From Halodesulfovibrio aestuarii DSM 17919 = ATCC 29578 (GTDB lineage: Bacteria; Desulfobacterota; Desulfovibrionia; Desulfovibrionales; Desulfovibrionaceae): a DNA stretch of 64,000 nucleotides. Below, one piece after another: positions 41,567-54,128 of the stretch. A program made the position numbers and the translations under genes. Within the stretch, counting starts at the first letter, position 1. Each line of letters starts with the position of its first letter. The DNA is taken from NCBI RefSeq assembly GCF_000384815.1, contig NZ_ARQF01000021.1, positions 806,001 to 870,000 on the forward strand, written 5' to 3'. The notes below the pieces were generated by a model, which had not been told where the DNA came from, made no database searches, and saw nothing but the letters and a program-made list of their open reading frames with translations.

Positions 41567-41652
41567 GGTGGGGTTCCCGAGTGGCCAAAGGGAACAGACT
41601 GTAAATCTGTCGGCGTACGCCTTCGGAGGTTCAAATCCTCCCCCCACCACCA
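41567..41652 (+). tRNA. tRNA-Tyr (GTA), copy 1
   Basis: Class II tRNA of 86 nt with a long variable arm, anticodon GTA in loop ACTGTAAAT, acceptor GGTGGGG/CCCCACC, encoded CCA. It is identical to a second copy at 42092. Confidence 0.97.
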
Positions 41653-41814: not shown

Positions 41815-41856
41815 AAAAAGGAGCCTCAGGTGACAATCTGAAGCTCCTTTTTTTTT
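41815..41856 (+). terminator. Terminator of Tyr-Gly tRNA operon
   Basis: Hairpin AAAAAGGAGC/GCTCCTTTTT with inner TCAG/CTGA and a T9 tract. A very similar hairpin lies at 42282. Confidence 0.9.
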
Positions 41857-42091: not shown

Positions 42092-42177
42092 GGTGGGGTT
42101 CCCGAGTGGCCAAAGGGAACAGACTGTAAATCTGTCGGCGTACGCCTTCGGAGGTTCAAATCCTCCCCCCACCACCA
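42092..42177 (+). tRNA. tRNA-Tyr (GTA), copy 2
   Basis: Exact copy of the tRNA-Tyr at 41567, beginning 5 bp after tRNA-Thr. Confidence 0.97.
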
Positions 42178-42221: not shown

Positions 42222-42275
42222 TGTAAGCTGACACCCAAAATGAGAATTTTGTACTCTCAAAATGAGAAAAGTACC
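42222..42275. repeat. Candidate transposase-binding repeats at prophage end
   Basis: CAAAATGAGAA occurs at 42236-42246 and 42258-42268, exactly 22 bp apart, and GTAC follows each. A terminal TG (TGTAAGC) starts at 42222. MuA sites are also about 22 bp long and arranged near the ends. The left-end partner needed for proof is outside the window. Confidence 0.5.
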
Positions 42276-42281
42276 GCACAC

Positions 42282-42317
42282 AAAAAGGAGCTTCAGAGAA
42301 ATCTGAAGCTCCTTTTT
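42282..42317. terminator. Bidirectional terminator at end of prophage cassette
   Basis: 16-bp stem AAAAAGGAGCTTCAGA/TCTGAAGCTCCTTTTT with a GAAA loop. It lies directly after the formyltransferase stop codon and nearly repeats the terminator at 41815. Confidence 0.9.
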
Positions 42318-42319
42318 CT

Positions 42320-42910
42320 TTATGTTATATTGCTCAACATTTTTCTTGTTAGAGATGGTTCCCATGTAGCGAAAATTTCATCTTGTTTTTTCGCTTCAAA
42401 TTGACCTGTTGAAGCTAATTTCTGAACAACACTCGTTAACAGGTGAACACCCATTGGAGCTAAGGCTCTACGCCAAAGAAGTTGAGGAGTATCATTCGCA
42501 GCAACGTGACACCAATCTTGAATTATGATCCCGCCTGTATCTGCGCCATCATCCATTTTGTATACAGTTCCACCTGCAATGGGATCTTTCATTGCGAGTG
42601 TCCAGTGAATTGCATCTCTACCTCGATGCCGAGGAAGTAATGACGGATGGTAGGCAAGCACACCATGCGTTGCTTTACTCCGTATAGCCTTTGATACAAA
42701 GCAGTGACAATGTGCGGCTAAAACCACGTCACATTCTGGTAGTTCTTCCAGTGCTGCGACTACCATCACACCGAGTTCATTTGCTAATTTCTCAAAATGA
42801 TCATTTCTCTTTTCAGGTGAAATCGCAATGACCTGCACGCCATCAAGCTTATTAACCTTCTTTAGAACTTCTGCAGCAAGCCAACCTTGGCCTATGATTA
42901 TTACTCGCAT
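42320..42910 (-). CDS. Formyltransferase-fold protein of phage cassette
   Basis: The protein has 196 residues. Rossmann start VIIIGQGWLAAEVL, then HPSLLPRHRGRDAIHW and MDDGADTGGII, the core signature of the methionyl-tRNA/ArnA formyltransferase family. His and Asp of the catalytic triad are present, but the usual Asn of NxHxSLLP reads Ala (AYHPSLLP). It starts at 42910, overlapping the GNAT gene by 10 bp; the longer frame has no support. It may formylate an amino group made by its partner, possibly on DNA. That is inference. Confidence 0.82.
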   Translation of the reverse strand: MRVIIIGQGWLAAEVLKKVNKLDGVQVIAISPEKRNDHFEKLANELGVMVVAALEELPECDVVLAAHCHCFVSKAIRSKATHGVLAYHPSLLPRHRGRDAIHWTLAMKDPIAGGTVYKMDDGADTGGIIIQDWCHVAANDTPQLLWRRALAPMGVHLLTSVVQKLASTGQFEAKKQDEIFATWEPSLTRKMLSNIT

Positions 42911-43755
42911 GAGGTATCCCCCATATAACGAAAACCTTGCACCGCTCGGAAATGGCCACCGTAGCCCGACATTGCTGTTTTCTTTTTCCCGCGCCTTTCT
43001 GCACTCTGTGCCAAACTCTTCGCGCAACGCACTTTGTTAGCGCCATAAAGTTTAGTACTTACCTGACACCATTTAGGTTGTCGTCTGAGTGCTGCAGCCA
43101 GCCCAGGATGTGATGTATGGAAGAGTACGGGCATCGGTCTTTCATATCTATTCTCCCCTCTCCGCCACAAATCACAAACAGCATTCAAGAACCGGAGTCC
43201 CACACCTGCGCCCTGCCATTCTGGCATCACAACAAGTCTACACGCCCTTGCCTCGTTTCTTGAACGGGTGCTTACAGCCAAATGTGCTACTGGCTCCCCA
43301 TTCACGAATCCAACATAACAGGTGGCAGCGATCATGTGCGGAAGCTTTAAATAATGATGCGGCGCAAAGTACTCCCACCATTCCCAGCCTGTCTGTCTGA
43401 TTTCCAATTCAATTGGTGGTCGTTGAAGACACCTCCGAGAAAGTTTACCTGTAGCAGTATCAAACACCCAGTCTGGTTGTAACCACTCTACAATGTCATA
43501 ATGGCAAGAAAGCAACACGGCCTTGCCTGATGTCCTGCGCCACGCCTTAGCAAAAGCGTGTGCTCCGACTTTAGCAATCTGACGGTCTACCACGGAAGTA
43601 AATTCATCAATTACTATTCGCTCAGGCTTTTCACTTACAATTCGTGCAAGCTCTGCTCTGAATTTTTCACCTGTTGAGAGCACCCTGTATGGGCGAAGCC
43701 ATGAGGGGACATCACCAAGCCCCACAGCAGACAACGCCCTGTTACCGCCTGCCAA
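42901..43755 (-). CDS. ABC-ATPase/GNAT fusion, C-terminal part (frameshifted)
   Basis: About 284 codons are visible, opening at a TTG that is not a real start. The first part continues an ABC-type ATPase: VLSTGEKFRAELAR signature and RIVIDEFTS Walker B. From about residue 120 a GNAT acyltransferase follows (VGFVNGEPVAHLAVSTR, RLVVMPEWQGAGVGLRFLN) with a conserved-looking tail HTSHPGLAAALR and GGHFRAVQGFRYMG. Mu Mom also belongs to the GNAT superfamily. The Walker A half is in another frame upstream, joined by a -1 shift at about 43737. It lies in the com cassette and overlaps the formyltransferase gene. Confidence 0.75.
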   Translation of the reverse strand: MAGGNRALSAVGLGDVPSWLRPYRVLSTGEKFRAELARIVSEKPERIVIDEFTSVVDRQIAKVGAHAFAKAWRRTSGKAVLLSCHYDIVEWLQPDWVFDTATGKLSRRCLQRPPIELEIRQTGWEWWEYFAPHHYLKLPHMIAATCYVGFVNGEPVAHLAVSTRSRNEARACRLVVMPEWQGAGVGLRFLNAVCDLWRRGENRYERPMPVLFHTSHPGLAAALRRQPKWCQVSTKLYGANKVRCAKSLAQSAERRGKKKTAMSGYGGHFRAVQGFRYMGDTSCE

Positions 43756-44033
43756 TCACCATCTGGTGCAATAACATCTATAATAGGTGCGCTATCTGGC
43801 CATGCTCGTTCCTGATGCATCGTGAAACCTTCTGCAGCAAGCGCATTGCCTATTGAAGACTTACCGGAACCTGATGGACCGATAACAAGACCGACTCGCC
43901 ATCCATCTTCCTCAATTGGCAGGTCTGCTTTAAGTGAAAAGCTATTCCCTGCATCTACATTAAATAGGGATTTCACACAGGCAGCTCGGTATGAAGAATA
44001 GTCCGGGCATGAATGAGTAATGTCTATTCTCAT
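43635..44033 (-). CDS. ABC-ATPase/GNAT fusion, N-terminal part (frameshifted)
   Basis: Start ATG 44033 overlaps the preceding stop as ATGA. Residues 52-60 hold Walker A GPSGSGKSS. After VIAPDGDWQAVT the frame leaves the ABC fold, whereas the other frame gives a sensible continuation (ALSAVGLGDVPSWLRP). One missing base in the G-run at 43737-43739, or a -1 shift, explains this. It could be a sequencing error, a true inactivating mutation or recoding; the site is not a standard slippery heptamer. Confidence 0.72.
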   Translation of the reverse strand: MRIDITHSCPDYSSYRAACVKSLFNVDAGNSFSLKADLPIEEDGWRVGLVIGPSGSGKSSIGNALAAEGFTMHQERAWPDSAPIIDVIAPDGDWQAVTGRCLLWGLVMSPHGFAHTGCSQQVKNSEQSLHEL

Positions 44034-44206
44034 GTCCGCACCGCCCTGCATTTGTAGCCTTTTGAATACAAGCGTTCATACACTTGCTTGTGCTCTGCTT
44101 CTGTTTTGCAAATCACAATTACCCCAAACTGTTCTTTGTACCGGGTATCTTTTGGCCTTCCCGGAGCCTCTGGCGCTAACGCTGGAAGCTCTGTTTTATT
44201 TTCCAT
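44030..44206 (-). CDS. Small protein of com cassette, 58 aa
   Basis: A 58-residue frame between com and the ABC/GNAT gene, ATG 44206 to TGA 44030. The start is 10 bp after the com stop and the end overlaps the next ATG, so it is tightly coupled. Sequence PGRPKDTRYKEQFGVIVICK then EAEHKQVYERLYSKGYKC resembles a small mixed alpha/beta domain. No family recognised. Confidence 0.65.
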   Translation of the reverse strand: MENKTELPALAPEAPGRPKDTRYKEQFGVIVICKTEAEHKQVYERLYSKGYKCRAVRT

Positions 44207-44215
44207 GTAATGTCC

Positions 44216-44362
44216 TTACGGACGGTCACGCCGTTCCTGTCCGGTGCTCTTGTCACTCACATGGTTATATGTCCCACAACGAGGACATTTTATTTCAAGT
44301 ATTGTTGCTGTGCCTTTAGCCAACAGACGGTTACAGTTACCGCATCGAATTTCTTTTCTCAT
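44216..44362 (-). CDS. com: Com-like zinc-finger translational regulator
   Basis: The protein has 48 residues with CxxC pairs Cys7/Cys10 and Cys26/Cys29 (IRCGNCNRLL, IKCPRCGT), matching the Mu Com pattern. In Mu, Com opens a hairpin in the mRNA so that the downstream mom can be translated. Here the downstream genes are a 58-aa gene, the ABC/GNAT fusion and a formyltransferase gene. ATG 44362 gives the family-typical start. The ribosome site is weak. Confidence 0.85.
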   Translation of the reverse strand: MRKEIRCGNCNRLLAKGTATILEIKCPRCGTYNHVSDKSTGQERRDRP

Positions 44363-51783: not shown

Positions 51784-54128
51784 TAAAACGCTCCCTGAGG
51801 CGTCTGGCCGTCAAACTCTGATACTAGTTGCTGAAGGGCTGAAACAAAGTCCTGCGCATTACTTACGTCCGGCAAGGAAACAGTTAAATTCTGAATTACC
51901 ACACCACCGGAAGAGCGCTCCTGTGGTCTTGGAGGCTGTTGCTTCTTAGCCTGCTTCGGTCTACCCAGTTCAGGCTGCTGGACTGGAACCACCACCTCTT
52001 GAGCTAATTTTGTCTCTGGAAAAGTTGGAATTTCCGGTAAAGTCACGCCTCCGCCTACAGGCTGCTCTACCACATTGGATATTGTTTCGATGGTAGTATT
52101 TTTACTGACTTCAACAGCTGCCAAATCAGGCACAGCCTGTTGCATAATGCCTGCGTCTGATTCCTGCTGAAGGACAGGAAGCTTTACACCTTCTTCAAGA
52201 ACTTCTGGTACTACTTCTGCCACAGTAGACATGACTAAATCTGGAGTTTCAATACCCGCCAGTGCGTTGTTAACAACGCCATGAAGGTCTGGCGCGGCCT
52301 TGGTCACACCTTCGCCAATGGTATCCATAACTTTTTGCCCGTTAAGGGTAAGAGCAGAAAGAGGACCTTCCTTAGCGTCTGAAAACGGCAGCAAATTACG
52401 GACACTGGTTAAAGCCGACTTTACAGCATCAAACGGCGCTGTTGCCATCGACTTCACACCTTCCACGAGGCTGCCTAAAATTCTTTTGCCAGCCTCAAAC
52501 AACGAGATATCACCCTGCAGAAAATCAAAAATATGACCTACTGATGAAACCAAAACTCGAAGTGGCGTAAACATAAGCTTTATCCCATCAACAAAGCTTG
52601 TAAGAAGCTTTCGGCCAGAATCTGACAAGTCAATATCAAATAGTCCCAAGACCGCTTCAACAACCCCTGTCAGGCCATCCATATGGAATGCACCGGCAAT
52701 ACGGTTCCATGCGTATTCCACCTCATCCGCAAAAGCGGTCACCGGCTCCCATAACGAAACAAAGAAATTCTTAATATCATCCCAGTACGTCATAATGAGA
52801 ATAGCACCCGCAACCAAAGCAGCAGCCACAAGAACAATAGGGTTAGCAAGAATCATAAGGTTCATAGCACCAACCGCAGCGGTTGCCGCCCATGACGCTG
52901 CTGAAAACAACGTAACGGCAAGCGTAACCGCGGCTACGCCACCTACTAAGGCTAAAATAGCCTTTCCAACAGGATGGGACGCAAGCGCATTCAGCCACCC
53001 CACAACTCCTGTCACAGCATCCACCAAGACCTTAAGCGCTGGTGTGAATACGCTACCAACTGAAATAGAAAGGCCCTCAACACCTGAATCTAAAATAGTA
53101 AGGGAGCCTTTCAAATTATCGAGTTGTTTTCCAGCCATTGCCGAGGCCGTTCCGGTGCTGTTAGAAAGCGTGTCGTGATATTCACGCAAAGAATTAACGC
53201 CCTGCCCAAGCAAAGCCGTAACCGACCCAACGGCCTCCTCACCAAAGACACGCTTTAAGAGTTCTGCCTGTTCAGCTGTACCCTTGCCTTGCATGGCGGT
53301 TTCCAAGCTGCCCATAATATCCAAAAACGGCAGCATGTTTCCCTGAGCATCACGGGTCACGATACCAAGACCACTTAACGCCTTTGCTGCGTCTCCAGTA
53401 GGAGCTGCCAAACGGTTAAACATAATCTTAGTTGCGGTACCAGCAACAGATGCGTTGATGTTTGCATCCGCTAGCTTGCCCGTAATGGCTGCAAGGAGCG
53501 CAAAATCACCACCTACACCAGCCACAACTGCGCCAGCGTTTTGCAATGCCATACCTAAGCCGTCCACGTCCGTTGCGCTTGTTGTGGAAGCCGCCGCGAT
53601 AATATCCGCAACCTCCGCGGCCTGCGCTGCTTCCATATGGAACGAGTTAAGCGCACCAGAAGTAACACCCGCGGCATTAGCAAGGCTTGTTTGTGCCGCA
53701 GCAGCCAAATCAAGCAAACCCGGCATGGAGCCAACAACCTGATTTGCAGTAAATCCTTTCTTTGCAAGTTCTGTCTGTGCTTCAACAACCTGTGCGGCAC
53801 TAAAAGCGGTGCTTGCCCCAAGGTCTAACGCTGATTGCTCCATGACATTCATATCCGCAGCGCTGGCGTTACTAATAGCCCCAAGACCGGACAACGCAGC
53901 CTCAAATTCCATCGCGACGCCAATCGTTGGCGCAAAGGCACCAAGCACAATCCCCGCAGCCAGCGCTAGAGGCAGAAGCCTTTTAGTAAGGCCGCCCATC
54001 ATGCTTGATAGGCGGCCTCCTTCAACGTCTGTAGAGCGGAATGACTGGCGAATCCTGTTCAGGGGACCAGAAAGGTTGTCGAGCAAACTGAATGTTGCGA
54101 AAACTTCAAATAGTTCCATTGACTTCAC
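51783..54128 (-). CDS. Tail tape measure protein
   Basis: The protein has 781 residues. Repeated helical and hydrophobic segments in the middle (VVGWLNALASHPVGKAILALVGG, NPIVLVAAALVAGAILIM) and a phage tape-measure domain at the N-terminus (EQSALDLGASTAFSAAQVVEAQTELAKKG). It sets tail length. Placed after the tail chaperone genes, as expected. Start 54128 or the ATG at 54119. Confidence 0.92.
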   Translation of the reverse strand: MKSMELFEVFATFSLLDNLSGPLNRIRQSFRSTDVEGGRLSSMMGGLTKRLLPLALAAGIVLGAFAPTIGVAMEFEAALSGLGAISNASAADMNVMEQSALDLGASTAFSAAQVVEAQTELAKKGFTANQVVGSMPGLLDLAAAAQTSLANAAGVTSGALNSFHMEAAQAAEVADIIAAASTTSATDVDGLGMALQNAGAVVAGVGGDFALLAAITGKLADANINASVAGTATKIMFNRLAAPTGDAAKALSGLGIVTRDAQGNMLPFLDIMGSLETAMQGKGTAEQAELLKRVFGEEAVGSVTALLGQGVNSLREYHDTLSNSTGTASAMAGKQLDNLKGSLTILDSGVEGLSISVGSVFTPALKVLVDAVTGVVGWLNALASHPVGKAILALVGGVAAVTLAVTLFSAASWAATAAVGAMNLMILANPIVLVAAALVAGAILIMTYWDDIKNFFVSLWEPVTAFADEVEYAWNRIAGAFHMDGLTGVVEAVLGLFDIDLSDSGRKLLTSFVDGIKLMFTPLRVLVSSVGHIFDFLQGDISLFEAGKRILGSLVEGVKSMATAPFDAVKSALTSVRNLLPFSDAKEGPLSALTLNGQKVMDTIGEGVTKAAPDLHGVVNNALAGIETPDLVMSTVAEVVPEVLEEGVKLPVLQQESDAGIMQQAVPDLAAVEVSKNTTIETISNVVEQPVGGGVTLPEIPTFPETKLAQEVVVPVQQPELGRPKQAKKQQPPRPQERSSGGVVIQNLTVSLPDVSNAQDFVSALQQLVSEFDGQTPQGAF

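Follow-up and report, generated by a model that had tools for sequence, protein, structure and literature searches.

The stretch of DNA analysed here (64,000 nucleotides (nt), positions 806,001 to 870,000 of contig NZ_ARQF01000021.1 of Halodesulfovibrio aestuarii DSM 17919; further called the window) contains one end of a Mu-like prophage, and the final 2.1 kb before this end (at position 42222) are occupied by a cassette of four genes of the minus strand. In the direction from the tail genes to the prophage end, these are com, a gene encoding a 58-aa protein (named PC here), an ABC ATPase-GNAT gene, and a gene of a formyltransferase-fold protein. Results of our analysis favour, with moderate confidence, the reading in which this cassette has replaced mom, and its ABC-GNAT protein acylates DNA bases under the control of the Com switch and with PC as an adaptor. 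That the cassette serves DNA modification in a wider sense, be it in this way or in the two-step manner weighed below, appears clearly more probable, and the association of its genes with those of DNA-modifying systems in sequenced genomes supports such a role well. What the analysis shows is the gene content of the cassette, the linkage of its genes, the enrichment of the Com motif, the conservation of enzyme motifs, and the absence of a particular asparagine from the formyltransferase-fold protein. An earlier interpretation made without database searches (the sequence-only reading) had described the same set of products downstream of com, and matches to the profiles phrog_28816, phrog_11143, and PF00551, respectively, agree with it.

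The assignment of com to the position that com-mom occupies in phage Mu, proposed in the sequence-only reading, is upheld. The Com protein matches PF10122 with an E-value of 8.8e-20 and a score of 70.4 bits (cut-off 22.9), and the family phrog_6417, annotated as 'translational regulator', with an E-value of 2.7e-18. The last cassette gene is separated from the prophage terminus by 98 bases, and mom stops 115 bases before the end of the Mu record. Common to the cassette and to com-mom of Mu are the com gene, the right-end position about 100 bases from the terminus, and a GNAT-fold enzyme as the product; relatives of the cassette additionally share with Mu the overlap of com by the next gene and a Com RNA motif before the start of that gene. 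The difference is that the enzyme encoded here is not Mom, and that an ABC ATPase, the PC adaptor, and a formyltransferase-fold protein are added. The terminus carries a 23-base end sequence, of which two copies were found in the genome in a search allowing up to three mismatches, and no further one; they differ by one mismatch and are located at the matching ends of two prophages, the similarity between which breaks off at the 42222 end. Genes of head, portal, sheath, tape-measure, baseplate, and tail-fibre proteins, as identified by Pfam and PHROG profile matches, lie upstream of com and indicate a contractile-tailed phage. The designation Mu-like is used here on the strength of Com, the TG end, and the layout; the opposite prophage end and the transposase fall outside the window.

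The linkage of com with ABC-GNAT genes, the conservation of which the sequence-only reading had suggested to check, proved to be real and recurrent. Among 239 scored ABC-GNAT loci, which come from three sets of 80 best hits each that share some members (one locus remained unscored), com is present in 103, a ParB-like core in 83, and neither of them in 53, and com and the ParB core never occur together. Homologues located mainly away from com had been named in advance as speaking against a role in DNA modification, and by these counts they were partly found; the ParB neighbours, however, also point to DNA modification. Of the original arguments for this role, the Com linkage and the genomic company, which consists mostly of DNA-modifying enzymes, have stood, and the kinship of the GNAT domain with Mom has not.

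The genes headed by com were surveyed by a search for PF10122 in 348 related genomes, 94 of which gave matches. The survey is limited to the 84 places with E-values of up to 1e-10, of which two are in the genome studied here, two were not retrieved, and 80 were read, and its sample represents one bacterial family, with related phages counted repeatedly. At all 79 places that passed the com profile, a modification-type gene is located within 1.3 kb downstream of com on the same strand. The neighbours are genes of amino-methyltransferases (30), C5 methyltransferases (13), Mom (13, one with an amino-methyltransferase), ABC-GNAT (7), C5 methyltransferase together with amino-methyltransferase (5), D12 (6, two of them with C5), and long ParB-like proteins (5); at L357, which fell below the com threshold, a piece of Mom is encoded nearby. 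Pfam matches of five representatives of the amino-methyltransferase, C5, and D12 kinds agree with this sorting (PF01555 in two, PF00145 in one, and PF02086 in two), and in the single long ParB-like protein tested (L337) a ParB_N-like match is accompanied by one to Methyltransf_23, a family that is not DNA-specific. The gene that follows com overlaps it in 27 of 30 cases in which an amino-methyltransferase comes first, 17 of 18 with C5 methyltransferase, 12 of 13 with Mom, and four of six with D12. In the group with long ParB-like proteins (L337, L338, L340, L342, and L240), com is followed by about 130 bases and then by the gene of a ParB-like protein of 506-546 aa.

According to the relevant part of an earlier study, Com binds the motif CC(N)2-3GAG or GAG(N)2CC (PMC6483171). 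In a scan from -90 to +10 around the start of the PC gene, with shuffled sequences as the expectation, the former was found at 89 of 98 Com-linked starts (36.6 in shuffled sequences) and the latter at 75 of 98 (24.4); the corresponding numbers for PC loci without com are 22 of 85 (12.4) and 11 of 85 (7.5). Shuffling overstates the significance of these counts because the sequences are related to each other; a control stretch further upstream in the same com loci is free of that fault, and there the two forms occur at the shuffled level (11 and 8 of 95). The motif is spread over all three reading frames of com (90, 67, and 33). At 94 of 112 loci the PC gene begins within com, and 72 of 96 com-PC loci contain CC(N)2-3GAG in the final 100 nt of com, against 31.6 in shuffled sequences. 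In the related genomes, the final 100 nt of com contain it in 12 of 12 com-Mom, 12 of 14 com-C5, 25 of 35 com-amino-methyltransferase, two of four com-D12, and none of four com-ParB junctions, as counted with the first sorting of Com places, in which Mom was mixed into the methyltransferase profile and L231 and L240 were mis-sorted (L231 was moved by hand). The four com-ParB junctions belong to the group with long ParB-like proteins. At the PC start of the window, GAG(N)2CC occurs once.

The PC protein aligns with about 45 C-terminal residues of the ParB-like proteins encoded directly before ABC-GNAT in other phages. As judged from this alignment, it corresponds to the C-terminal domain of a ParB-like protein that has become a protein of its own, and we propose that it acts as an adaptor of ABC-GNAT. 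Relatives found with one ParB-PC protein as a query provided 71 new scored loci, of which six or more lie on contigs that the ABC-GNAT set also includes. ABC-GNAT is the next gene in all 17 of those with a PC tail and in none of the 52 with sufficient room among the 54 without it, the tail being recognized with a profile built from ABC-GNAT-linked members, which highly divergent tails could escape and which favours the finding of that linkage. By motif, 27 of the 54 PC-less ParB proteins are fused to a DPPY-like methyltransferase, 15 are encoded beside a Mom-like gene, and seven beside a C5 methyltransferase gene, which gives 49 with a fused or adjacent methyltransferase or Mom and leaves five without assignment; Pfam identified N6_N4_Mtase, Mom, or DNA_methylase in all eight cases tested. 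These counts therefore indicate that ParB cores serve several DNA-modifying enzymes and that PC marks those serving ABC-GNAT. The PC domain of the cassette corresponds to the C-terminal part that such ParB partners of phage methyltransferases and Mom have in ABC-GNAT phages, whereas Com-linked phages lack the ParB core and have Com in its place.

The fusion of ABC ATPase with GNAT, as described in the sequence-only reading, is supported by a single family profile and is intact in relatives, but in the window the gene is split over two overlapping frames and does not form a single open one. Both pieces match phrog_11143 (357 positions), the second with an E-value of 2.1e-120. In the second prophage of the genome the cassette set is intact, and its 377-aa ABC-GNAT (L002) is 94% identical over the matched part; L006 and L007 likewise carry an unbroken frame. 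The window copy is probably inactive. The ratios of nonsynonymous to synonymous substitution rates in comparison with L002 and L007 are 0.03-0.10 for PC and the ABC-GNAT pieces and 0.17-0.18 for the formyltransferase, values by which the parts of the cassette are under purifying selection; the damage in the window is therefore recent, or an assembly error. A programmed frameshift was considered and rejected, as the break points of the window and of L010 differ and no slippery run was visible by eye; damage or assembly error is the more likely cause. The same ATPase region is also split in L346 and L347 (two copies in a genome of the same genus) and in the viral contig L010, which may be one of the two and whose split point differs from that of the window (43635-43755). 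Perhaps such recurrent splitting means that the gene is costly in lysogens.

The residues of the Walker, signature, and GNAT motifs are near invariant in 33 relatives, and the motif of the GNAT domain is of the usual acyl-CoA type. AlphaFold2 models of an intact relative reached a mean pLDDT (predicted local distance difference test) of 86.8 for the whole protein and 87.8 for the GNAT alone. A fold search with the former was swamped by ABC transporters, and the latter retrieved other GNATs, with Ard1, RimI, and SpeG types among the best 50 of 1323 PDB matches. The relationship to Mom assumed in the sequence-only reading did not survive: the Mom structure 8bv8 is absent from those best 50, the Mom profile PF25680 has no match to the window GNAT piece at E-values of up to 1 (Mu Mom itself gives 2.4e-75), and the hhalign comparison of the GNAT with Mom is not significant (E-value 0.14, probability 0.4%). 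An H-Y motif that both seem to share by eye falls in the stretch aligned by hhalign, without significance. COG2401 is the name given to an ABC ATPase fused to an acetyltransferase, on which no paper was found in the literature searched.

In a marine branch (L016-L026), the ABC and GNAT parts do not share a frame; in all 11 loci, which represent about six distinct phages of roughly 73-88% DNA identity, the two frames join at a run of exactly ten A (example site L016:5737-5746). A shift by -1 at this run yields the ABC-GNAT fusion, and a scan for the exact pattern found the arrangement in 12 contigs, one of them new. It looks like programmed or transcriptional slippage that may determine how much ABC is made alone relative to ABC-GNAT.

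As recounted in PMC7824862, Iyer and colleagues had earlier predicted an acyl modification of DNA, as yet uncharacterised, for a GNAT coupled to an ABC ATPase. Phage pT24, named in that account, matches the window GNAT piece by tblastn, and the ABC-GNAT of the cassette very probably belongs to the same family. The passage of that paper on the ABC ATPase-GNAT system mentions neither Com nor a formyltransferase, and the word formyltransferase occurs nowhere in the paper.

The closest solved relatives of the formyltransferase-fold protein are hydrolase domains of 10-formyltetrahydrofolate dehydrogenase (FDH; E-value 1.8e-41), followed by Met-tRNA formyltransferase (5.3e-27) and PurN (3.1e-15); ArnA is also among them. 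The His, Pro, Ser, and Asp of the formyltransferase family are kept, and the Asn two places before the His is absent in 17 of 17 sequences. The intact copy scores 53.3 bits with the PurN profile, below its cut-off of 150.1. The family thus lacks the Asn of the Asn-x-His of PurN and the amine formyltransferases and has the His-Pro-Ser and Asp of the FDH type, with the Asn replaced. The relevant parts of published studies state that FDH has Ile where FMT, ArnA, and GART carry a crucial Asn (PMC4388273), that in FDH the formyl group is passed to 4'-phosphopantetheine (PMC8748788), and that for HypX formyl-CoA was proposed, direct proof being absent (PMC6802093). The FDH-like site and the missing Asn led us to propose that this protein may load formyl from 10-formyl-tetrahydrofolate (10-formyl-THF) onto a CoA-type thiol for the GNAT; because acyl-CoA is the donor of GNATs, the two enzymes would be connected most simply by a relay of formyl-CoA. 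With the hydrolase domain of ALDH1L1 and the N-terminal domain of HypX the cassette enzyme shares the His-Ser-Asp site, and with FDH the loss of Asn; it differs from ALDH1L1 and HypX in having no carrier or dehydrogenase domain and in adjoining a CoA-type acyltransferase. Short versions of 157 and 161 aa (L005:5831-6301 and L015:7149-7631) have lost much of the N-terminal half and kept HPS and Asp.

The formyltransferase and ABC-GNAT genes are commonly neighbours. Among the best 80 of 355 viral relatives of the formyltransferase, found with a query made from ABC-GNAT-linked members that favours this linkage, ABC-GNAT is upstream in 79, and the last locus is cut at the contig edge, with a piece of 41 residues; more distant matches (57 phage records) include ordinary formyltransferases and were left unsorted. 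Among the best 80 of 405 bacterial ABC-GNAT loci, a formyltransferase is present in 64 by the scoring rule and additionally in L264 and L281. By their record titles, the best 80 bacterial relatives come from Proteobacteria, Bacteroidetes, Planctomycetes, Actinobacteria, and Firmicutes, among other groups. Com, PC, ABC-GNAT, and formyltransferase are all found in the record of Pseudomonas phage Komp_PAO1_1, and Gordonia phage NHagos has the ParB form. Many metagenomic phages (within L027-L059 and L075-L084, though not all of these) have the order ParB-PC-ABC-GNAT without formyltransferase, which accounts for 38 of the 80 loci of their set.

From these data we infer a DNA base as the substrate, the use of ATP, a protective role and, tentatively, formyl as the acyl group. 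Com would bind the RNA motif at the com/PC junction and open the PC-ABC-GNAT-formyltransferase mRNA to translation; the PC domain would pass DNA to the ABC ATPase, the ATP-driven clamping of which may bring the GNAT to a base amino group, and the GNAT would move an acyl group from acyl-CoA to the base. In the formyl variant, the formyltransferase-fold partner would transfer the formyl group of 10-formyl-THF to the CoA-type thiol, from which the base would be N-formylated. The modified base would shield phage DNA from restriction, a part played in Mu by momylation. The complete formyl relay, in which an FDH/HypX-like enzyme and an ATP-driven ABC-GNAT with a ParB-derived adaptor write N-formylated bases late and under the Com switch, is a possibility to which we give considerably less weight than to acylation as such.

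Several observations, besides the mentioned bias of the PC profile and of the viral formyltransferase query, weigh against base acylation by a Com-switched ABC-GNAT. Most GNATs act on proteins, small molecules, or tRNA. By the scoring rule, neither PC, nor a ParB core, nor com is present in 21 of the 80 viral ABC-GNAT loci (two of these begin at the locus edge). The window itself lacks CC(N)2-3GAG in the 100 nt scanned at the PC start, its PC start does not overlap com, and in the related genomes only three of seven com/ABC-GNAT junctions have this form of the motif in the final 100 nt of com (shuffled 1.6). Masking of the start by RNA folding at Com-linked PC starts is weak, with a mean z of -0.51 and 66 of 98 starts lower than their shuffles, and compares with 0.0 at ParB starts, +0.33 at PC starts without com, and -0.27 and +0.21 at ABC-GNAT starts with and without com, respectively. 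The z of the window is -1.36 and that of Mu's own start +1.44; the fold test is therefore non-discriminating, and masking was dropped as a signature of the Com switch. A formyltransferase is missing in 14 of the 80 bacterial ABC-GNAT loci (L302 has no room for it) and is present in only 18 of the best 80 of 150 viral ones, where three others (L006, L011, and L013) are cut at a contig edge. Several loci with com and PC end at ABC-GNAT and are followed by host genes, so that the formyltransferase is a usual, not a universal partner. ABC-GNAT can therefore work without it or with another donor.

The occurrence of ABC-GNAT with com and PC and without formyltransferase also agrees with a two-step modification, in which host acyl-CoA supplies the GNAT with an ordinary acyl or aminoacyl group, and an amino group of this first addition is then formylated by the formyltransferase. 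Enzymes of this fold usually formylate amines, as do FMT, ArnA, and PurN among the solved relatives; however, the Asn that amine formyltransferases need, by the pertinent part of PMC4388273, is absent in 17 of 17 sequences, and we regard this route as rather unlikely. More doubtful still is an RNA or protein target, that is, a host-takeover or toxic function in which aminoacyl-tRNA or a host protein is the acyl acceptor of the GNAT and tRNA the substrate of the formyltransferase-fold partner. The Ard1, RimI, and SpeG types among the best 50 of 1323 PDB matches of the GNAT and the Met-tRNA formyltransferase among the relatives of its partner would fit such a function, but the partner has only 196 aa with no tRNA-binding C-terminal domain among its Pfam matches, Com and ParB are otherwise partnered with modification-type genes, and PADLOC gave only weak ATPase resemblances (best mad3, E-value 3.6e-8). 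A restriction or anti-restriction ATPase merely regulated by the acyl and formyl enzymes, for which the complete ABC motifs and the frame change at the conserved A10 of the marine branch (it would give ABC without GNAT) could be quoted, is highly improbable, as the GNAT motif residues are near invariant too and the profile matches of the cassette proteins include no nuclease domain.

Table. Coordinates of the cassette features and of the prophage end in the window.
Feature	Position	Strand	Remarks
com, zinc-ribbon protein, 48 aa, two CxxC pairs	44216..44362	-	PF10122, phrog_6417
GAG(N)2CC element	44243..44249	-	43 nt before the start of the 58-aa gene; one of the two forms of the Com motif
58-aa PC protein	44030..44206	-	phrog_28816, E-value 3.2e-12; aligns with ParB C-termini
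ABC ATPase, first piece (Walker A)	43635..44033	-	open frame 43635-44051; ends early by frame change; phrog_11143, E-value 5.3e-20
Second piece: ABC signature, Walker B, H-loop, GNAT domain	42901..43755	-	other frame; own start codon not claimed
Formyltransferase-fold protein, 196 aa	42320..42910	-	PF00551, E-value 5e-21; phrog_9240, E-value 1.1e-55
Likely terminator	42285..42318	.	immediately follows the last gene; inverted repeat, T-runs on either strand; seen by eye
Prophage right end	42222..42244	+	begins with TG; 23-base end sequence recurs at the second prophage

A comparable inverted-repeat arrangement follows the cassette in the second prophage copy. By eye, the stem sequence of the inverted repeat inside the prophage end (42285-42318) is partly common with that of another one outside it (41821-41855). 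A tRNA-Tyr gene (42092-42177) stops 45 bases short of the prophage terminus, and another with the identical anticodon is located at 41567-41652; a tRNA-Trp predicted by ARAGORN at 51968-52065 falls within the tape-measure gene and is probably false.

In the literature collection searched, no report was found of the com/ABC-GNAT/formyltransferase set, of the Com/ParB logic, of the formyl route, or of Com heading methyltransferases. What our analysis adds is the replacement of mom by a cassette under Com, the heading by Com of several kinds of modifying genes, the occurrence of its motif at the com/PC junction, the derivation of the 58-aa gene from ParB together with its specificity, and the resemblance of the formyltransferase to FDH.

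If our reading is right, Com would not be reserved for Mom but would be a common late switch for several phage DNA modifications, and the place of mom in Mu-like phages would be a swap site, so that new base chemistries may be found beside com. Many phage ParB-like genes would gain a function as partners of modifying enzymes, and the PC domain would predict which enzyme is served. The formyl relay, if true, would represent a folate-dependent acylation of DNA with formyl-CoA used as a GNAT donor, and the cassette would stand for a widespread, uncharacterised base modification with testable chemistry.

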